IMG/VR virus record: IMGVR_UViG_3300023174_000038
Coordinates: 248,001-312,000 of that record
Origin: a virus
Strand: one strand, 5' to 3'
DNA length: 64,000 bases
Shown here: positions 13,485 to 43,866 of the stretch, one piece after another
Layout: each line of letters opens with the position of its first letter
How positions within the stretch are numbered: position 1 is the first letter of the stretch
The notes under the pieces: generated by a model
What the model saw: the letters and a program-made list of their open reading frames with translations, nothing else
The model's database searches: none
Told to the model about the DNA's origin: nothing
Position numbers and translations under genes: made by a program

Positions 13485-14810
13485 ATGAGATTTACCGAGA
13501 TTATAACTGAAAGCACTGATCTTATACCCTTTGCAGATGGGCATTTGGTTGCCAGTAACCATTTTATAAAAGATAGAAGTATCAAAAGAAATATATCTAT
13601 GGATAATATTTTACAGGTATTACATAAATTGGAAAAAACAAGAAAAGAAGAATTATTTAAAATGCCTTTTGTTAATTTTGTTGTAAAGGCCCCTCATCTT
13701 GGTATAGGTTTATCTAAACAAAAAGATTGGCATGGTGACATAGTATATGTAATTACTACCGCTCACGAAACTTTAAGAGTAGGTGATCTAGAAGATGTAT
13801 TTTATTTAGAAGAAGAAACTGGCACCAGACTCAAGGACCTAGCAAAAATTGCTACAAATATGCCGGATGCTGATTTTTGGTTAATACGTAAAGGTAGTGA
13901 TAAAACTGTTGGAAAACCTGTTAAAGAATTTGATCCTTCACGTATTGGTATTAAAGTTGTAAGAACTGATGTGCTTGACCCAAACTATCTTTATTATGTA
14001 ATGATGCATTTACACAATCAAGGACAATTTGCACGTATAGCAAATGGTACTACTAATTTAGTTAATATTACTGTAAATGATATTGCTAATATTCCATTAG
14101 GTCAACAAGGTATGACCGAAGCAGGTAGTCCGGCACAACAGGCTGCTATTGCTATTAATATGAAAAAACATCATAAAAAACCTAAATCAGAAAGCTTAAA
14201 TGAATTTGTATCTGATGATGGTGATGAAGAAGAATCACTACGCAAATATGCTAAGTTGTGGTATAACGGTGATGATACTACACAACAACAAGTTGAAAAA
14301 ATCTTAGCACGTATGGGTTGGGAAATTGGTGAGATAGAATCAGAAGAAGGCGGTGCATTTGTTGTACAGTCCGGTGATATGAATGGTGATAGTTACATTG
14401 GTTTCACTGTTAATGATTTAACTGAGAGTACGGAAAGGTATACAAAAATGAAAATAGAAGAACTAATTACTGAAGGCGAGAATTGGTCAAAGCACAATAA
14501 TCCAAGAGCAGGTGGTATGAGTAAAAAGTCTGTAAAGAGTTACCGCCGCAGTCATCCTGGTAGTAAGATTCAAACAGCAGTAACAACTAAACCAAGCAAA
14601 CTTAAAAAGGGTAGTAAGGCAGCAAAGCGCCGTGCTAGCTTCTGCGCTAGAATGCGTGGGATGAAGAAACATCGTACAGGTGCTAAAACAGCAAATGATC
14701 CAAACAGTAATATCAATAAAAGTTTACGTAGATGGCATTGTGAAAGCATTGAACAAATGCAAGAGTTAGTAATGTTAGCTGAACAAAAAATTAGGGATCT
14801 TAAGAAATGA
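13485..14810 (+). CDS. probable head-cargo polyprotein with capsid-targeting-like N-terminus and DUF6321-like domain
   Basis: A 441-residue mosaic. The N-terminus MRFTEIITES resembles the T4 capsid-targeting peptide ending in a prohead-protease site (I-T-E/S). Further (I/L/M)-x-E sites separate blocks: GMTEAGS near 206, SLNEFVS, DLTES and ELITEG near 325. The block before ELITEG (LRKYAKLWYNGDDTTQQQVE) is a small acidic domain. The C-terminal block (HPGSKIQTAVTTKPSKLKKG ... FCARMRGMKKH ... RRWHC) looks like DUF6321, a basic likely nucleic-acid-binding domain. Next gene starts by ATGA overlap. Packaging and cleavage are inferred. Confidence 0.7.
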   Translation: MRFTEIITESTDLIPFADGHLVASNHFIKDRSIKRNISMDNILQVLHKLEKTRKEELFKMPFVNFVVKAPHLGIGLSKQKDWHGDIVYVITTAHETLRVGDLEDVFYLEEETGTRLKDLAKIATNMPDADFWLIRKGSDKTVGKPVKEFDPSRIGIKVVRTDVLDPNYLYYVMMHLHNQGQFARIANGTTNLVNITVNDIANIPLGQQGMTEAGSPAQQAAIAINMKKHHKKPKSESLNEFVSDDGDEEESLRKYAKLWYNGDDTTQQQVEKILARMGWEIGEIESEEGGAFVVQSGDMNGDSYIGFTVNDLTESTERYTKMKIEELITEGENWSKHNNPRAGGMSKKSVKSYRRSHPGSKIQTAVTTKPSKLKKGSKAAKRRASFCARMRGMKKHRTGAKTANDPNSNINKSLRRWHCESIEQMQELVMLAEQKIRDLKK

Positions 14811-16180
14811 ATTTTGTAGAACTATTTGAGGGTACAACACCCAAATTACCGGGTGCTGTAGGTGGCATCAAAGTTATGAGTATGGATCAATTCCTTGCTC
14901 AATCGGGTGATGAACCGGAAGAAAAAATAGATGAAATGTCTTCCGAAGAATTAGATAAAATGTCCCCTGAACAATTAGCACAGTTTACACATAAGGCTAG
15001 AACTGATAAAGCTAAGGTAGATCCCAAAACAATTGATCAGGCTTATGGTAAAAGTATGGATATAATGTTTCCGGATCGTAAAAAATCAGAACATAATAAA
15101 CAACAAGGTGTGGCGGAAGCAACCAAACTTCCAGCACAAACACGTGAACTAAAGGGTCAAGAACTAGATGATTACTTAGATAGAATTCGTAATCGTGAAA
15201 AGGGTAAAACAGACAAATATAAACTACCTTACATCCATCGGTCAAGTGTAGTAAAATACTACAATGAAGAAGGTAAACGCTACGATACAGACCAAATCAA
15301 AACAGCATTAGGCGTTCGTCCAAAGAAACTTCTTAAACAAAATGAGAAGATGAAACATAGTAATGGTGAACTAGAACAATTCTATAACATTGGTTTTGCC
15401 GCATTAGTTGGTATCGCACTAGACGAAGGAACTAACGAACTAATTGTAGTTAATACATGTCCGGGTGCTGGATCATGTAAAGTAGATTGTTTTGCTATGA
15501 AGGGAGGCAAAGTACAATTTGAAGGTCCTTGGTTAAGCGACGGAAGAATTCTTACATTCTTATTGAATGATCCAGATGGTTTCTTTAATCAATTAAGTGC
15601 AGAAATCACAAAAGAAGAAAAACAAGCACAAAAAGGTGGTTACAATTTAACTATTCGTTGGCATGATGCTGGTGATTTCTTTAGCCCAGAATATATGGAT
15701 CTAGCATTTAAGTTGGCGGCTGCCCATCCTGATGTTAAATTCTACGCTTATACAAAGATAGCCGATGCGGCATTAGGCCAAAAGCCAAGTAACTTTATTG
15801 TTAACTGGAGTGAAGGTGCAAGCACTAGCCAAGAGAAACAAGTTAAAGCACAGGATGCTAATTTAGATAAAACTAAAAATAGTCGTATTGTTCCAAGTAA
15901 GTTATTCTATGACTTGTTAAAGAAAGATAAGGATGGTAAGTTAGATAAAACTGCCGACGGTGCATGGCAACCACGTGATGCAGCCGCATTGGAAGAATTG
16001 AAAGATAGATTAGCGGCCGCATATAATCTAAAACGTGATAGTATCATTGATTACAATGAGATGATGGCCACCCCACAAAAGAATAACATTAAGAAATGGA
16101 ATGTTATTATTGCTCCGGGTGAGGGCGATATCAGTGCTAATAGACAAGATGTATTATCAACATTATTATTGAAACACTAA
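14807..16180 (+). CDS. GP88-like domain protein with capsid-targeting-like N-terminus
   Basis: A 457-residue protein. N-terminus MNFVELFEGT carries an L-F-E/G site; QQGVAEATKLP near residue 105 carries V-A-E/A. The C-terminal 330 residues match the phage gene-product-88 domain: VNTCPGAGSCKVDCFAMKGG (three clustered cysteines), IRWHDAGDFFSPEYMDL and DVKFYAYTKI. Function of GP88 is unknown; the cysteine cluster may bind metal. It overlaps the previous cargo-like gene by 4 nt. Packaging is inferred. Confidence 0.75.
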   Translation: MNFVELFEGTTPKLPGAVGGIKVMSMDQFLAQSGDEPEEKIDEMSSEELDKMSPEQLAQFTHKARTDKAKVDPKTIDQAYGKSMDIMFPDRKKSEHNKQQGVAEATKLPAQTRELKGQELDDYLDRIRNREKGKTDKYKLPYIHRSSVVKYYNEEGKRYDTDQIKTALGVRPKKLLKQNEKMKHSNGELEQFYNIGFAALVGIALDEGTNELIVVNTCPGAGSCKVDCFAMKGGKVQFEGPWLSDGRILTFLLNDPDGFFNQLSAEITKEEKQAQKGGYNLTIRWHDAGDFFSPEYMDLAFKLAAAHPDVKFYAYTKIADAALGQKPSNFIVNWSEGASTSQEKQVKAQDANLDKTKNSRIVPSKLFYDLLKKDKDGKLDKTADGAWQPRDAAALEELKDRLAAAYNLKRDSIIDYNEMMATPQKNNIKKWNVIIAPGEGDISANRQDVLSTLLLKH

Positions 16181-34062: not shown

Positions 34063-34960
34063 TTATTGTATTCCTGATGAACCGGCTGAGCTATACAATG
34101 CTGCACTTAAAGGACCACGTACACTTGCTGTTGCTGTATCTGTTGCATATGTAATTCTATCCACTAATGACGTTGCAGAAAATCCTCCTGCAAACCAACC
34201 ATAACTGTTATTACCAACTGAGGTAAAATATCCTCTACTAGAGCTAAGTGGGCCACGAATACTAGCGGTAGCAGTATCTGATGCATATGTAATACGTGAA
34301 ACGGTTGATATAACACTACTTCCACCTGCCCACCACCCATATGTGGTATTATCAGAAGATGCTGCCTGTGCATATGTACTTAGACCAAGTGGACCACGTA
34401 CACTTGCCGTTGCTGTATCTGTTGCATATGTAATACGATTGACTGTTGACACACCGCCTGGTATACCTCCGCCACCAAACCAACCATCAGTACTAATTCC
34501 GGCCGCCGCAAACCTAGAATTAGCCAAACTAAGTGGACCACGCACACTTGCTGTTGTTGTATCTGTTGCATATGTTACACGATCTACTAATGACGTTGGT
34601 GCACCCAAAGTGACCCCGCCACCAAACCAACCATCAGTAGTATTTCCGGCCGCAGCTAAATAAAATTTGGCTGCACTTAATGGGCCCCGAACACTTGCTG
34701 TTGCTGTATCAGTTGCATATGTTATTCTATTTACGGCTGATGAAGGTCCATTAACGTTGCCACCGACCCAACCATTAGTAGTATTGCCGGCACCTGCTGC
34801 GCTGCCTGTACCTGTACTTAATGGTCCGCGAATACTTGTTGTAGTAGTATCTGTGGTAAATGTAATACGATTGACAGTACTACGTACAGCAGGATTTCCT
34901 CCACTGACCCATCCTGCTGTTGCTTCAGATGGAGGTGCTGCCGTAAGCGTCCATCCTCCG
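34063..34960 (-). repeat. six tandem approx. 135-nt coding repeats
   Basis: The kelch-like gene contains six copies of a unit whose conserved part encodes RITYATDTATASVRGPLS-like strands. High similarity allows unequal recombination; the one-repeat gene at 33806 may be a product. Confidence 0.7.
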
Positions 34961-35001
34961 CCCGATATTGTTACACCGCCACCACTAAATGTTACTGACA
35001 T
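34063..35001 (-). CDS. kelch-like repeat adhesin/tail fibre protein
   Basis: A 312-residue protein with a short Gly/Ser N-terminal leader (VTISGGGWTLTAAPPS) and six repeats of about 45 residues. Each has GW(F/V)GG, then RITYATDTATASVRGPLS and an A-rich turn. Six copies fit a six-bladed beta-propeller, a receptor-binding architecture. Repeats are alike at DNA level too. Late octamer GATAAATA at 35020-35027 and SD AAAGGGAA support late virion expression. Confidence 0.7.
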   Translation of the reverse strand: MSVTFSGGGVTISGGGWTLTAAPPSEATAGWVSGGNPAVRSTVNRITFTTDTTTTSIRGPLSTGTGSAAGAGNTTNGWVGGNVNGPSSAVNRITYATDTATASVRGPLSAAKFYLAAAGNTTDGWFGGGVTLGAPTSLVDRVTYATDTTTASVRGPLSLANSRFAAAGISTDGWFGGGGIPGGVSTVNRITYATDTATASVRGPLGLSTYAQAASSDNTTYGWWAGGSSVISTVSRITYASDTATASIRGPLSSSRGYFTSVGNNSYGWFAGGFSATSLVDRITYATDTATASVRGPLSAALYSSAGSSGIQ

Positions 35002-36039: not shown

Positions 36040-36972
36040 TTAAGAACCGTAGGCTGCGGCTCCAAGTTCGCCTCTAGCAGTGCCCACCCCGGTAGTATCT
36101 GTAGCAACCACGCCTGTATTTGATACTAGATTAGTCATTGATACTCTTACTCCAACCTCACCGTATCCAAAGATAGCTTTATCAGTTCCATAACCTGCGG
36201 CTGCAAGATTCATTCTAGCAGTACCGACTCCGGTAGTATCAGTTGCGACAACACCGGTGTTTGATACTAGATTGGTAATTGAATAATAACCACCATCAAA
36301 TCCATAACCAAATATAGCTTTACCTGTACCGTAACCAGCGGCCGCCAAACTATTTCTAACAGTACCGACACCCGTGGTATCTGTTGCTACTACTCCTGTG
36401 TTTGACACTAGGTTGGTTACTGCTGTTCTAGCACTTCCATATCCATATCCAAAAATAGCTTGTCCACTACTGCCGTAGCCGGCAGCTGCCAATGCCTGTC
36501 TAGCTGTACCAACCCCTGTTGTATCTGTGGCTACTACGCCTGTGTTTGAAACTAAATTAGTCATTGAGAACACAATAGTATTATTTGTTCCATATCCAAA
36601 TAAGGCTTTATCAGTGCCATACCCTGCGGCCGCCAAACTAGTTCTAGCAGTGCCCACTCCAGTTGTGTCATTGGCAACCACGCCTGTATTACTTACTAAA
36701 TTGGTTATTGCCGTATTACCGGTAGAATACCCGTATCCAAAAATAGCTTTATCTGTACCGTAACCTGCGGCTGCAAGTTGATATCTAGCAGTGCCCACAC
36801 CAGTTGTATCTGTAGCAACTACACCCGCACTTGTTACTAGGTTGGTTATTGCTGTTACACCTACCCCACCAATGTATCCATATCCAAATATAGCTTTATT
36901 ACCGCCTGGAGGTGGTGTAATAGCCCATCCTCCGCCATTTAATGTTATTCCACCTGTAATTGTTATTGACAT
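36040..36972 (-). CDS. kelch-like repeat adhesin/tail fibre protein
   Basis: A 310-residue protein with a leader like that of the 34063 adhesin (ITGGITLNGGGWAITPPPGG). It has six repeats of about 48 residues, each KAIFGYGY ... TNLVSNTGVVATDTTGVGTA then LAAAGYG. Its repeat sequence differs completely from the 34063 gene while the leader is kept, which fits swappable receptor-binding propellers on a shared attachment stub. Receptor specificity unknown. Confidence 0.7.
   Translation of the reverse strand: MSITITGGITLNGGGWAITPPPGGNKAIFGYGYIGGVGVTAITNLVTSAGVVATDTTGVGTARYQLAAAGYGTDKAIFGYGYSTGNTAITNLVSNTGVVANDTTGVGTARTSLAAAGYGTDKALFGYGTNNTIVFSMTNLVSNTGVVATDTTGVGTARQALAAAGYGSSGQAIFGYGYGSARTAVTNLVSNTGVVATDTTGVGTVRNSLAAAGYGTGKAIFGYGFDGGYYSITNLVSNTGVVATDTTGVGTARMNLAAAGYGTDKAIFGYGEVGVRVSMTNLVSNTGVVATDTTGVGTARGELGAAAYGS
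36060..36900 (-). repeat. six tandem approx. 144-nt coding repeats
   Basis: Repeats encoding the TNLVSNTGVVATDTTGVGTA strand are nearly identical in protein and much alike in DNA; a substrate for repeat-number change. Confidence 0.7.
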
Positions 36973-36982
36973 TTTTTAACCT

Positions 36983-37936
36983 TTATTGAAAAATTTCTGG
37001 ATGTGCTTTGCCAAATATCTTAATATACTTGCCAGCCATTACATCCGCTTCAGCTTCTATTGGACTACCAGGATAACTATCACCCGGCTTAATCATATTT
37101 AATTCACCCTGACGTACATGTGTTAATTCATGGAACACAGTACGTAATATATCTACTAAATTTCTATTAGCACAATAAACCCATACTTCACCCGTCTCTG
37201 GATTATGTCTTCCAGTATGATGACCTTCTTGTGCTTCATCACTATCATAACTAAACTCTATCTTTGGAGTATTTTGTAAATTCAACTTCTTACTTGTCCA
37301 AGCAAGAAACTTCTGTACAATAGGATTACTATTCAAATCTTCTTGTTCAGCTTCTGTAATGTAGGGCTTTAATAACTCTGGATCATATCCTTTATGTCTA
37401 GCAGAATCTCGTAATCGTCTTAACCCTTTAGCTTCAATTTGTCTTATTCTATCTCTAGACAAGTCAAACCTATCACCAATCTGTTGTAATGTCATGTCAT
37501 ACCAAAATCTTAAAATTAATACTTTTCGTTGGTCATCGGTTAATCTGTCTAAGCCGTTTTGGATAATTTGTTTAATACTATCATCTGTTGCAGGCTCCTC
37601 ACCAGCTGGATCTTTATATGGTACTCGTTCTGCCCTATTATAAATATCGTTTGGATCATTTAATGTTGGCATTTTATTATGAGCTCCACGATATGTAGCA
37701 CCATCTGGGTTGTAATGTCGTCCTCCAACCTCATCTAGTTTATCTTTAATCCAATTGTCTGGAGTTTTATGATATTTTCTAACAAATAAATCATGCAATG
37801 CATCACCAGTAATACGGTGTTTCTTTGCTATGTTTTTCATTAGCTTATCAATGGTATTATAGTCGTGTTTCTCTAAGCTAGGAAGTTTCTTAGCTAGTTC
37901 AACTGCGGCTGATTCGTATAGTTCTATTGCTCTCAT
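36983..37936 (-). CDS. probable head-cargo protein: sigma-70 region 4 domain fused to zinc metallopeptidase
   Basis: A 317-residue protein. It starts MRAIELYESAA, a capsid-targeting-like peptide with an L-Y-E/S site. Residues 12-65 are a helical domain (HDYNTIDKLMKNIAKKHRIT). Residues 120-178 match sigma-70 region 4 (LTDDQRKVLILRFWYDMTLQ, RDRIRQIEAKGLRRLR). A second site, I-T-E/A at 193-196, precedes a metallopeptidase domain with HELTH at 269-273 and a Glu-rich helix (PIEAEADVMAG) that can give the third zinc ligand. An ATG 10 codons downstream of a GTG is chosen, because the late octamer lies between them. Confidence 0.75.
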   Translation of the reverse strand: MRAIELYESAAVELAKKLPSLEKHDYNTIDKLMKNIAKKHRITGDALHDLFVRKYHKTPDNWIKDKLDEVGGRHYNPDGATYRGAHNKMPTLNDPNDIYNRAERVPYKDPAGEEPATDDSIKQIIQNGLDRLTDDQRKVLILRFWYDMTLQQIGDRFDLSRDRIRQIEAKGLRRLRDSARHKGYDPELLKPYITEAEQEDLNSNPIVQKFLAWTSKKLNLQNTPKIEFSYDSDEAQEGHHTGRHNPETGEVWVYCANRNLVDILRTVFHELTHVRQGELNMIKPGDSYPGSPIEAEADVMAGKYIKIFGKAHPEIFQ

Positions 37937-37941
37937 ATTAG

Positions 37942-37949
37942 TATTTATG
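37942..37949 (-). promoter_or_regulatory. late-promoter-like octamer CATAAATA
   Basis: CATAAATAC on the minus strand, 5 nt before the ATG at 37936; leaderless geometry. Confidence 0.6.
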
Positions 37950-38039
37950 CTCACTTTTGATTTCACAGTAGCGAATTGTTACATCAGGCCAGCAGCCGGC
38001 CCACACTTGAAAACGCAAAGGTCCTAAGGTAGTGTGTTC
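37950..38039. other. structured intergenic region
   Basis: About 90 nt, more GC-rich than its surroundings, between the nuclease stop and the late promoter. It has CACACT/AGTGTG (38002-38007 with 38031-38036) and GGCC/GGCC (37987-37990 with 37998-38001) pairings. The 13-mer at 38020-38032 equals the GGTCCTAAGGTAG core of bacterial 23S rRNA (I-CeuI target region). No ORF fits. Confidence 0.4.
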
Positions 38040-38852
38040 TTAATCATTCGTCTTACATTTAGCACGTTTAGCATTGGTTAATGCTCCGTAATCTACTGGC
38101 CATTCTTTACCAGGCTGTAACTCTTTAGCGTTTGCAGGGAAATGGTACTTTACACCTGCATATTCTTGTATCTGTGCTAATGGAGCACGAAACTGTGTCA
38201 AATCATTACCCAAATTAACATATGGTTTCTTATGTGGGAACTGCCATCCAGCAACTTCATGTGTAACATTGTTAATAACAATCTTGTAGTAACCATGAGG
38301 AACAACTACACCATTACCAATCTTTTCATTACCTGTACCATAATATGCACCTACATAAATTGTGAATGGTTGTTTTAGTTGTACTGCCCATCCACGTATA
38401 CTTGTTTCTAATAGTTTCCATATGCCACGATTCAATGAACCATGTTGAGGATACATATTAGTCATTAAAAAACTTTCATATTCTACTTGTTGTGTCCAAG
38501 ATAGATCACCATCTGGTGCAGCATGACCTTTGTCATAACCCGTAGCTACATAATCATCAGGCTTTGCACCATCTTTAATACTAGCATCAGCAACAAAAGC
38601 GTTTGTTCTTGGGAAACAACCTAAAGCATTTTCTGGCTTAAGAGTGTATGCTACATATACTGGTATCTTTGCTGGCGAATCATATGCTACAAGATATGCT
38701 TCACGACATATTGGTTGTGATGGTCTTGCTGTTTGTGCAAATCCGTACGGACTATGTATTTGACATTGTTGTACTGGTAAGGGAGCACGTTGATCCCATG
38801 CAAATATATTTGTTGATATTAGTACTGTTGCTATTGCTATTATTTTTTTCAT
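38040..38852 (-). CDS. exported DNA/RNA non-specific endonuclease (NucA/NUC1 family)
   Basis: A 270-residue nuclease with a signal peptide (residues 1-18, cleavage after IFA). Catalytic motif D107-K-G-H110 (YDKGHAAPDGD), and the metal-binding LNRGIWKLLE (N141, E149) follow the beta-beta-alpha-metal fold. It degrades DNA and RNA without sequence preference. Export to the periplasm could recycle nucleotides, clear competing DNA or help superinfection exclusion. It is located inside the cargo-gene cluster. Confidence 0.85.
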   Translation of the reverse strand: MKKIIAIATVLISTNIFAWDQRAPLPVQQCQIHSPYGFAQTARPSQPICREAYLVAYDSPAKIPVYVAYTLKPENALGCFPRTNAFVADASIKDGAKPDDYVATGYDKGHAAPDGDLSWTQQVEYESFLMTNMYPQHGSLNRGIWKLLETSIRGWAVQLKQPFTIYVGAYYGTGNEKIGNGVVVPHGYYKIVINNVTHEVAGWQFPHKKPYVNLGNDLTQFRAPLAQIQEYAGVKYHFPANAKELQPGKEWPVDYGALTNAKRAKCKTND

Positions 38853-38862
38853 TCAATCCTCT

Positions 38863-39489
38863 TTATCCTACTACTGTACGATTCTTTACTTTACTAATTT
38901 CTACACTGAGTGGTGTATTAGTTGTTTTTGCTCTAAATATCTTATCAGTCTCACGTACACCTGGCTTAAGTTCAGATGCTACAATTAAGAATCTTGCTCT
39001 ATTCTTTCTCATGCCAATAAACTCACCTACTAATACTTGGTAATTAGGATAGTTAGGTGTTAAATCTATTTTAGGATTTTCTTGTTCATTGATGCTTTCT
39101 GACACACCTTGTGCAATTGCTTCACGTGCCTGACGTTCATTTTCTTGTTTGAATCGTTGCATGGCTTGACTATCATTTATTTGTCCACGATCCAGTGCTT
39201 GCCAAATTGGCAAATCAAATGTGAGATATTTTTTTTGTACTGCTTGAGCATAACTAACTTCATTGCCACGACCTTGCCAATCAGGTTTATGCCCCCAAAC
39301 AACAGATACAGATTGACCATTTGGGAAGTTGATACGCATACGCTCTCCATAAAATACATATGTACTACCTTGCCATGTAAAAGCAAGATCGCCATTAACT
39401 GTTTTACCCATAGACCAGCCATGCTTTTTTAACAGTGAATCAACTGCGGCTTGATTATCATTCTCAATAATAAACTCTGTTGCTCTCAT
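38863..39489 (-). CDS. probable head-cargo protein with capsid-targeting-like N-terminus
   Basis: A 208-residue protein starting MRATEFIIEND (I-I-E/N). First block ends at GVSESINEQENPKI, where two sites (V-S-E/S, I-N-E/Q) lie together near residue 135. The N-terminal block (KKHGWSMGKTVNGDLAFTWQ, YVFYGERMRINFP) is a small beta domain; the C-terminal block (YQVLVGEFIGMRKNRARFLI) is another. Neither has a recognised function. Overlaps dps by one base (TAATG). Confidence 0.65.
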   Translation of the reverse strand: MRATEFIIENDNQAAVDSLLKKHGWSMGKTVNGDLAFTWQGSTYVFYGERMRINFPNGQSVSVVWGHKPDWQGRGNEVSYAQAVQKKYLTFDLPIWQALDRGQINDSQAMQRFKQENERQAREAIAQGVSESINEQENPKIDLTPNYPNYQVLVGEFIGMRKNRARFLIVASELKPGVRETDKIFRAKTTNTPLSVEISKVKNRTVVG

Positions 39490-39938: not shown

Positions 39939-42900
39939 TTAGTCTTTCTTTTTTGTATTAACATTGATGGCTTTACCACTACGGTCAGGATTAGGATCTT
40001 CTCTACGTTTACGTTGAGCGGCACTTGCACGACCCTTCTTACCTAGACTATGTGCTTTACTTTGTGGCAAGCATTTTGGTTTACCTTCTCCTGGTTCTCT
40101 AGCACATGGACCTTTAATCTTTCCTTTAGTATCCATGCGAACCCACTTTTCTTTATTAAACCAATCATGCAAACTTTCATCTGCCCTTTCAATACCTTCT
40201 AGTATAGAACTTTCATTCTTCTTCCCACCGTTACCCCAGTTACTTGCGCCTTTGTTGCGACACTTAACTAATGCACCACTGGCATAAGCACTTGGCCATA
40301 CTTTATAACGACTCTTTACTTTGTAGTAGCAAGCATCTTTCTTTTCGTTCATTAATTCTTCACTAACCATTTCGCCACCACAGTGTGGGCAACTTTCACT
40401 GTGTTGGTCTTCATTTGTTTTATTTTTAGCACAACTACCCGGAAAGCCTGCTTTAGTACCAGCAACTCTATGATAGCCGGACCAGCATTTCAATTCATCT
40501 AGTTGATCTTTTGAATGGTCACCGTGTGTTTCACACATACCGCAGTCTTCACAGACCATTTCCATTTCAATGCTTTCATTGTGCTTCTTCTTACCTGCAC
40601 AATGAGCCTTTTGACTAAAGCCTTTAGGATGACTACAGTTAATACTGCTCTTATATTTTTGACTCCAGCCTTCATCCATCTCTTGTTCATTAACGTAAAT
40701 TGCGGCAGTTGTTTTATTTAAACTTTGTGGATCTTTTACGCCGGCTGCTACTTTAATTGCTTTAACTTTTTGTCTATAGTCATCAGCATATTCGGCTAAT
40801 CTGTAGCCTAACATTTTACCAATTTCTTCAGGTGTAGCTGGTTTATCTTGCGGAGTATTTGCACCAAAAGTTGTGTCTAGTATCTTAGGCCATGCCATCC
40901 AGACCATATTTGATAACTCTTTATATGCTTTGCTTCTTAATTCTTTAATTTGAGCTTCAGCCTCATCTTCAGAAATACTAGGTGCGGGTGCAGGAATAGT
41001 TCCTTTGAATGCTTGAGCATTACCGGCACCGCCTAATCCTGCGGCAGCTAATGCGCCGGCGCCTGCTGCCTTACCCATGTTACCTAAAAACCCTCTACGG
41101 TTCATATCAGCTTCTTTCAAACCTGATTTTTTACGTATATACAATCTATCCTGTAATATTGAAATAGCATTGTCTAACTTTTTATTCAATGATTGATAGT
41201 TATCTTTTGCACCATACTTAACGTGCATACTAGTATCAGTATCATTCTGCATTGCAGGAGTTAACAAACCTTTACGTTCTAATCTATCAACTAACTTATC
41301 TAATAGTTCTTGCTTTTGTATAGCATTATCTAATTGTGCTAATCTAGCTTTTAATACAGAATGTTTTTCACCAGGTTGTGCAACTGGTGTTGGTTGAAAT
41401 TCTCTACGTAAACCTTGTTGTGCTTTTTGTACTGTGTTCTTTTCAAAATCTTGTCTCCAAGCTTCTATTTCAGCTTCACGCTGTTTCTCTATAGCTAATT
41501 TAGCTTGAATCAACGCATCCAATGATGTAGATTTTAATTGATCACCTAAGTTTTCATCAATTGATGCATAACGCTTATCATCTAAATCATCGTGGTAACT
41601 TCTTTGTGGTGGTTTTTTTAGCTCTATTGGTTTCTTAGATGAACCTCTATAACCACGTTCCCATGCCGCTGCACCTGCTGCCGCACTTTTACCATTTTTA
41701 ACAAAGTGATTAATGACTTCTTGTTTACTGTTAAATCTAGGTGATTCTATACCTTCATTTGTTGCCATTTCGCCATCATTACTATGACCATAATATTTGG
41801 CTACTTTTTGTAAATCAGCAGAATTTCTATCGTTAAGATAATCAGTTACTAAATCATGTATCTGATATCTTTGTTCTTGCGGGGCTGGTAATTCTATTTC
41901 ACCTTCACTTGCATCAGCAATATGTGCGGCGCCGGGACTGTCTAAGAACCATATCTCATCATCCTCATCCCATTCTAATCCCCATTTGTCTATTGTTGCA
42001 GTTAATACATAGTTGTTAGTAGTACCTACTACAAATTTGTTACCGCCTATATAACGTGAGCTATTTGGTTGACCGTAATCTTTTGGTCCTTTAGGGCCGC
42101 CAGTTTGTACAAATTCATTTATACCTTGACTGATACCAGATTTCTTTGTATCATTAGCAAATTGTTTTTTAGTTGCACGAACAATACCACTGAAACGTTT
42201 ATCACCACGCTTGTAATCGCCCTCTTTATCAGCTTTTCCTGCATCGGCAGCGGCCGCTGTTTTATATTGTGCTAGTTTCTCATTAGAGATTTCATCTAGT
42301 TGTGATTCAGGCATTAATCCGTGCTTTGTAATACGAGCATCTAATTCATCACGCTCTTTGGAATATTTTTGTATAAGTTCTTTATTACCTACTTGAATTG
42401 CTTGTCTAAGTTTTTCCTGAATGGCATCTGCTAAATCATAGTATTGATCCATTTTCATTCTAGTGGTATTATCTTCTTTTATTGTTTTACCTTGACCTAA
42501 TTGTTGTAAATCACTTGTTAATACATCTTGTGTAACACTACCCATACCTTTTGAAATCGTAATGCGAGAATGTTTACGATCCTTACTCATAGCAACTACT
42601 TTTGATGGTTGTCCAAAATACTTAACAGTATCACCTATCTGTATGTTCTTCATAGATACATTACCAACATTAACCGGTTTATCACCTGCAAAGTTACCTT
42701 GATCTCCCCATGGGTCATCTAAACTTTCATTTGTACCAGTAGCTAATCTATCATGGTCACTATCACGTTGGGCTTTTTCTGCCGCTGCCTTCATAGCACG
42801 ACCTTTAGCAAAATCTTTTTCTTGTCTTATTAAACCATATGGATCATACTCATCATCATCTGTTTGTGTATGTCTACCACGTTTAGGATATGATGGTGCA

Positions 42901-42984: not shown

Positions 42985-43866
42985 TCACGCTTTCTTATTC
43001 TTGTTATCTAACATGCCACGCTTATTAGCTGTTGCCCAAGCAATGTTCTCCGCTTCTTTTTTACTGTGACCTAATTTCTTTTCACTTTGTGCTACATGCT
43101 TAACCATACGGTCTACTTTAGCACCTTCATCTATTGGTGCATGAACTGGACATTGGTCTTGACCATGTGTTCTACACACACATTTCAAATTAGGTTTGCC
43201 TTCTGCTACGCCCTGTTGACCATACGTATCAAGAATTTGTCTAACATAAAAATTATAAAAACCACGACGGCTATTGTATTCTCTATCTCCAAGTACAGTC
43301 TTTAGTGCTTTTACAGCATCAGTTACTTCTGGGCCACGCATTATTTTTAATGAGTCAGTAACTAGTGTATCACCTCTTTGTGAGCCTTCTGATACACCTT
43401 GAACTTGTTTACCTTCTAAGTATTCACGTATAGTGTTTAGATAATCATTGGCTTTAATAATCTTTTCTTGTACCCAACCATCAAGACCTTCTTCTTCACT
43501 AAGGTCTTTAATCATTGAATAAACTTGTTGAGCATTCTTTGCGGCACTGAATAGATCACTACGTGCCATCTCAACTTCGTGGTCTATACGACTTTGACCA
43601 TGTGGCACAAATCCATTTTTACGACTACGTCCTTGTCCCGGAACGACAATAACATCATCTTCTTGTAGTTCTGCTTCACTTATTTCAGCACTTTCATTAA
43701 TGCTGTTAGCATATGGAGCACTAGTCTTTTTACCCTTGAATAGTGTGCCTACTTTCTTGCCACCATATATGCTAGGATTTCCCCTAGATTGTGTGCCACC
43801 TAATGGTGAATTTACAGTAGCTATTGCACCTGCTGTTGTAGTTTCAGTGATTTGTTTGATTTTCAT
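42985..43866 (-). CDS. probable head-cargo polyprotein with capsid-targeting-like N-terminus
   Basis: A 293-residue protein starting MKIKQITETTTAG (I-T-E/T). More sites: SINESAEISEAELQED near 58-70, QGVSEGS and QGVAEGK, and PIDEGAK. Blocks: Gly/Ser start (GGTQSRGNPSIYGGKKVGTL), a helical middle (RSDLFSAAKNAQQVYSMIKD), a Cys/His block (CVCRTHGQDQCPVHAP) and a basic tail (HVAQSEKKLGHSKKEAENIA) of a known small phage module. Late octamer at 43889-43896. Function of the blocks unknown. Confidence 0.7.
   Translation of the reverse strand: MKIKQITETTTAGAIATVNSPLGGTQSRGNPSIYGGKKVGTLFKGKKTSAPYANSINESAEISEAELQEDDVIVVPGQGRSRKNGFVPHGQSRIDHEVEMARSDLFSAAKNAQQVYSMIKDLSEEEGLDGWVQEKIIKANDYLNTIREYLEGKQVQGVSEGSQRGDTLVTDSLKIMRGPEVTDAVKALKTVLGDREYNSRRGFYNFYVRQILDTYGQQGVAEGKPNLKCVCRTHGQDQCPVHAPIDEGAKVDRMVKHVAQSEKKLGHSKKEAENIAWATANKRGMLDNKNKKA

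Follow-up and report, generated by a model that had tools for sequence, protein, structure and literature searches.

Tat-type signals behind prohead-protease-like sites in multi-module proteins of giant T4-like phages: export tags that may be armed by capsid maturation

Why should a signal for the twin-arginine (Tat) export pathway lie deep inside a phage protein? The question is raised by a 1014-residue protein encoded in the window, the stretch of 64,000 nucleotides analysed here, which belongs to a virus record of 348,701 bases (IMG/VR). The segment MNRRGFLGNMGKAAGAGALAAAGLGGAGNAQA, residues 627-658 (nucleotides 41105 to 41010), is preceded by IRKKSGLKE/AD, where the slash marks the putative cut. 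It begins two residues past LKE/A, a prohead-protease motif of the T4 gp21 type. The original prediction had placed a Tat-like segment directly after this site, and its coordinates proved exact. The features are collected in Table 1.

The protein contains 19 [VILMF]xE motifs. Despite its many modules, the only domains recognised are DUF5872, below cut-off, and PHROGs of unknown function; the C-terminal modules match PHROGs 727, 3477, 23735 and 12753. The whole protein matched 369 phage records, mostly of cyanophages, and all 20 of the matches listed lie C-terminal of the Tat segment. In Synechococcus phage DSL-LC02 the matching gene separates the large terminase gene from a group of neck, tail-sheath-stabilisation and small terminase genes. 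The module that concerns us comprises the Tat signal and a passenger of about 100 amino acids, mostly helical in a poor model. A second conserved motif, ISE/D, is found in the passenger of the window family, 14 residues beyond the signal.

Table 1. Positions in the window of the Tat-bearing gene, its parts and related leader-bearing genes (a slash marks a putative cut; L numbers are loci of homologues)
Feature	Position	Strand	Remarks
Multi-module protein, putative packaged head protein, 1014 aa	39939..42983	-	N-terminal leader MSNILKGIINE/S
Putative prohead-protease site L-K-E/A, residues 622-624	41112..41120	-	L/I-X-E specificity of T4 gp21 (available part of PMC9026906)
Tat-type signal, residues 625-658	41010..41111	-	AD-MNRRGFL, uncharged h-region, NAQA
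Whole mobile module, residues 625-771	40671..41111	-	ends QEMDE/GWSQ; in L002/L012 homologues, missing from L014
Second leader-bearing gene	14807..16180	+	homologue L062 has a Tat-lipoprotein-like module inserted
Gene with leader MRATEFIIE/	38863..39489	-	ends TVVG-stop; homologues L001-L005/L134 continue VVDE/DLSRRGFLG and a GH19 domain
Leader-bearing protein MKIKQITE/T	42985..43866	-	further xxE sites; neighbour of the 1014-aa gene

Is the segment a Tat signal? Taken by itself, the window copy is a sub-threshold match. When the whole protein was searched, the sole Tat profile match was to TIGR02811 (NCBIfam, formate-dehydrogenase-region Tat target) at residues 623-658 (E = 0.0028), at 17.9 bits not reaching the cut-off of 48.45. 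Against TIGR01409 (TAT_signal), with a cut-off of 16.7 bits, the window copy scored 14.0 bits when started at the methionine, the alignment covering profile positions 2-29 of 29, and 11.4 bits when started at the P1′ alanine; the copy alone gave E = 0.05 to 0.34. This NCBI-curated cut-off is exceeded by 15 of the 18 distinct cassettes described below, the remainder being the window's, that of L006/L012 (15.6) and that of L134 (16.6). Pfam PF10518 (TAT_signal) was above cut-off in 4 of 9 cassettes tried. Thus the Tat-type identity proposed in the original prediction holds for most of the relatives, but the profile check on the window copy itself, started where the cut would leave it, remains below the cut-off. 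Since the same arrangement recurs in 18 distinct cassettes, the window copy is more than a chance likeness.

The other features of a Tat signal are found in the cassettes. The h-regions have uncharged runs of 14-27 residues and are of low hydrophobicity, with 14-residue KD means of 1.19-1.81. An A-x-A-type motif, loosely defined, is present in 16 of 17 cassettes; in its place L062 has a lipobox-like VAGC. In both proteins that were modelled the Tat segment is predicted to lie outside any compact domain, so that the burial considered in the original prediction did not occur. The pLDDT is 25-31 over the window's own segment, in a regional model that is poor as a whole (mean 43.9), and below 50 over nearly all of residues 1-27 of the L020-family module. 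The passenger of the latter is modelled as beta-rich with pLDDT of 68-83, and its fold gave no PDB match at E ≤ 0.001.

How widespread is the arrangement? Related loci and pattern scans yielded [V/I/L]xE/(AD)[M/L][N/S/T]RRGFL... in 18 distinct cassettes (17 listed, and L132) within 35 virus records (26, a further 8 and the window's); a DNA pattern search found one copy in the window's genome. The surroundings of the 18 cassettes differ or have been reshuffled, and the Met or Leu follows the protease-like site by 0-2 residues. The codons of the P3-P1 residues vary among the cassettes, and P3 is valine at 13 of the 18 sites. V/I/L at P3 and E at P1 are present in every listed cassette by selection, and the first pattern list demanded E-A-D-M, so that list cannot itself argue for the placement of the signal.

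Placement can be judged from a scan that was blind to the upstream sequence (ATG-AAY-CGT-R-G-F only), in which 96 of 97 stretches were examined, two lacking RR were dropped and 74 were distinct. Where the open frame extended 100 residues or more ahead of the RRGF signal, [VIL]xE stood 0-2 residues upstream in 10 of 15 distinct cases. Near the frame start, with fewer than 100 open residues upstream, this was so in one of 58, and the background at random positions in the same frames is 5.7%. The scan as run gave 11/16 deep against 1/58 shallow signals (Fisher p = 1.2e-8), with one cassette counted twice. The five deep signals that are not behind xxE are L049, L054, L127, L086 and L107, of which the last two resemble normal gene starts preceded by open frame. 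The other three, on marine contigs, are multi-module phage proteins of a different sort, with GGR[IV]G motifs, and have an MNRRGFL Tat-like segment in their interior (at residues 567, 390 and 326, respectively). Relatives of the L049 segment are encoded at nine loci, and these three may represent a separate lineage of buried Tat signals.

E-A-D-M-x-R-R-G-F occurs twice in 84,980 bacterial and archaeal genomes, both occurrences being chance upstream extensions of normal Tat genes. Relaxing the motif to RRxF behind DEADM gave 19 stretches, all within loci that RRGF had already given. In a search of cultured phages one L020-like query of 114 aa had no match in 50,697 phage records, and one narrow pattern for hidden Sec signals after VAEA gave eight stretches, none of them signal-like.

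The protease that might cut at these sites is encoded by the same virus. The window's genome has a T4-type prohead protease, Peptidase_S77 (PF03420, 97.1 bits), and near it a gp23 capsid protein (329 bits) whose N-terminus reads LLAE/SSAG just ahead of the conserved region that is presumed to be the mature protein. The capsid proteins of two relatives have LKE and LAE at the equivalent place, and thus LxE immediately precedes the presumed mature start in the three capsid sequences read, from four loci looked at. S77 is present in 3 of 18 other records, these being three of the four longer than 190 kb; the rest are shorter pieces. The T4 protease gp21 cleaves behind L/I-X-E, and the capsid-targeting sequence of the T4 internal protein IPIII is a 10-residue leader (both from the available part of PMC9026906). 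A leader of 8-11 residues ending in [VILF]xE is found in 12 of the 17 cassette ORFs whose start was read, those of L019, L025, L029, L038 and L044 being the exceptions, while the start of the L020 ORF lies outside the count. The motif alone is weak, as some of the 61 ORFs of the window that have no tie to heads also satisfy a looser leader rule. Phage-encoded TatA/B was not found in the seven phage records searched.

The Tat modules are present or absent as whole units between homologues, with breakpoints that are mostly xxE sites. L013 and L014 are without the whole window module, reading EVDE/GWSQK where the window has QEMDE/GWSQK. The second leader-bearing gene of the window reads KQQGVAE/ATKLPAQ, whereas its L062 homologue reads KQQNVNE/AGMNRRGFLKG...GLNE/ATKLPAQ, with the module placed exactly between NVNE/ and /ATKLPAQ. 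When inserts of 25 residues or more were compared pairwise, a glutamate stood no more than three residues from each end in 17 of 19 cases (14% by chance; the pairs are not independent), and strictly exact E-to-E boundaries are found in 5 of 13 (1% by chance).

The passengers are of some 11 kinds, as counted by eye. One family occurs in three contexts (L020, L022 and L029), and a chitinase-like GH19 endolysin domain (PF00182; PHROG 181, lysis) in another three (L063, L134 and L132). Since peptidoglycan hydrolases work beyond the inner membrane, a Tat signal ahead of GH19 makes sense. The minimal form is L132:10461-11156 (-), a protein of just 231 residues comprising MLIKEVTE/DLSRRGFLGALGAAGAAAVAPGMAQA and GH19. 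Its leader is the eight residues ending in VTE and its Tat signal is above the curated cut-off; this signal might act even uncut. At the other extreme, the L109 passenger is only about 50 low-complexity residues.

Some further features of these loci may be recorded. The 536-residue frame of L063 has, upstream of the Tat signal and GH19, a weak RNA 2′-phosphotransferase-like match (PF01885, 18.5 bits, below cut-off). In the window a nuclease (phrog_14168; 38040-38852, -) with an ordinary Sec-like N-terminus adjoins the leader-bearing genes. The protein at 36983-37966 (-) has an LxE-type leader, a sigma-factor-like domain (phrog_351) and a C-terminal part with HELTH that by eye looks like a metallopeptidase. 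Two Gly/Thr-rich proteins without any xxE site (36040-36972, with GYGTDKAIFGYG-type repeats, and 34063-35001, both -) are perhaps tail-fibre-like.

From the arrangement, its recurrence, the exchange of modules and the protease gene we infer cutting, packaging, injection and export, and a purpose for them. The polyprotein would be made late, and its short N-terminal leader would direct it into the prohead, where the S77 protease would cut it after [V/L/I]xE. Cutting at LKE/A would create a fragment starting ADMNRRGFL..., in which the Tat signal is now near the N-terminus of a folded passenger. In the uncut protein more than 600 residues precede the signal; it would be poorly used, and the producing cell would therefore not export the protein. 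Once the fragment has entered the next host along with the DNA, TatABC of that host would export the passenger, and signal peptidase would cut at NAQA. Where the passenger is GH19, a muralytic enzyme would be moved from the cytosol to the periplasm. For packaging, cutting, injection and next-host export taken jointly, a latent Tat signal unlocked by capsid maturation is in our judgement slightly better than an even prospect, and the interpretation given in the original prediction is supported as far as sequence can take it. Some observations count against this reading. P3 is mostly valine, while T4 gp21 is described as cutting L/I-X-E; a cut at ISE/D would free the window signal from its cargo; and the methionine is kept in 16 of the 18 cassettes, which is more than cleavage alone needs. 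The score of the window copy below the Tat cut-off, the short low-complexity passenger of L109, the small number of strictly exact E-to-E boundaries, the few other records with S77, the lack of TatA/B in the seven phage records and a Shine-Dalgarno comparison that fails to set the cassette ATGs apart from real starts weigh in the same direction.

That conserved methionine is also the basis of the main rival, according to which translation starts internally at the ATG of M[N/S/T]RRGFL to give a free, ordinary Tat pre-protein, with xxE/A a mere module border. There is a precedent in the second, internal start of T4 gene 21 (available part of PMC9026906). Shine-Dalgarno comparison in both settings failed to separate the cassette ATGs from real starts (p = 0.48 for the anti-SD energies), and they are slightly better than internal methionines (p = 0.035), yet the cassette median energy of -0.6 is nearer to that of internal methionines (-0.4) than to that of starts (-2.65). 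The two exceptions, L134 and L132, have a TTA leucine codon at this position, where translation cannot start. Moreover an internal start does not explain why A-D and xxE, ahead of the methionine, are conserved as residues while their codons vary. Because A-D is conserved with varying codons, the unit seems to start at P1′ and not at the methionine. An internal start would yield the same product, and both could operate, but as the explanation of the cassettes we consider it unlikely.

The remaining explanations fare less well. The signal might be active in the uncut precursor, or serve as a membrane or TatBC anchor, for example keeping proheads or injected proteins attached to the inner membrane. 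In T4 the prohead is membrane-associated during maturation and then detaches (available part of PMC9026906), and the near absence of a passenger in L109 would suit an anchor. However, the constant spacing of 0-2 residues behind a protease-like site would be unexplained, as would the A-x-A-type signal-peptidase motifs of most cassettes and the lipobox-like motif of L062, and we regard this explanation as quite improbable. That the cassettes are functionless relics, a bacterial or phage Tat N-terminus captured as a coding module, could account through recent copying for their near-identity in DNA (GAAGCTGATATGAACCGTAGAGGATTC-like) across contexts. Yet variation affects N/S/T, K/G, the h-region and the codons but has spared RR, F, L, the uncharged stretch and A-x-A, and GH19 passengers recur; we think a relic very improbable. 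That a Gly/Ala-rich linker resembles a Tat signal by chance could be entertained from the E values of the window copy alone, but it is at odds with the recurrence, the profile scores and the placement statistics, and with the scarcity of EADMxRRGF in bacterial and archaeal genomes, where both examples precede ordinary Tat genes. We regard it as disfavoured and hardly credible.

How does a signal unlocked by maturation compare with known systems? In the bipartite transit peptides of the thylakoid lumen, removal of the first targeting peptide exposes a Tat signal; here, by contrast, the two compartments would be a virus head and then the periplasm of a different cell. The cassettes resemble bacterial Tat substrates (RRxFLK) in having M[N/S/T]RRGFL(K/G), a weakly hydrophobic h-region and A-x-A or a lipobox, but the signal is internal to a long protein, where it follows a protease-like site, and is not at the translation start. 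Endolysins are usually exported by way of a holin or a SAR anchor. The GH19 passengers are like phage GH19 endolysins, except that a [V/L]xE site and a Tat signal stand ahead of the domain in place of these. The closeness to the T4 internal head proteins (IPI-III and Alt) lies in the leader ending hydrophobic-x-Glu, the S77 protease in the genome, gp23, and presumed packaging and ejection. The proteins described here differ in being multi-module with many sites, and in that the cut would expose an export signal; the available part of PMC9026906 describes no Tat signal on the T4 proteins. Like the polyvalent proteins of phages and conjugative elements, which are thought to enter the host with the DNA (available part of PMC5512222), they are large and made up of several modules, but these are split by prohead-type sites and some start with Tat signals. 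The terms 'signal peptide' and 'periplasm' are absent from the available part of that study (Iyer et al. 2017).

We found no description of a Tat signal behind a prohead-protease site in the open-licence literature searched, which is not proof that it is unpublished, and the arrangement is unmentioned in the available parts of PMC9026906, PMC9503650, PMC5512222 and PMC7824862. The wider proposal is of a delayed-export kit, in which enzymes and other polyprotein cargo would be stored in the head, Tat signals would be armed by maturation and modules for periplasmic effectors, among them muralytic enzymes, would be swapped at protease sites. The Tat pathway of the producing cell would pass the cargo over, and that of the next cell would send it to the periplasm as soon as it is injected. 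This is tentative, and we put it just short of even. Our analysis indicates that giant T4-like phages may carry an export tag that stays inactive until the protein is cleaved within the particle, and that might serve in the next infected cell. If this is true, a single cleavage would both mature the head and arm a tag meant for the next host, and two textbook systems, capsid-maturation proteolysis and Tat export, would together act as a time switch. Some of the numerous sites in giant-phage proteins that resemble prohead-protease targets would then have an explanation, there would be reason to think that injected phage proteins can be forwarded to the periplasm, and endolysins would have a testable, holin-free route of export.
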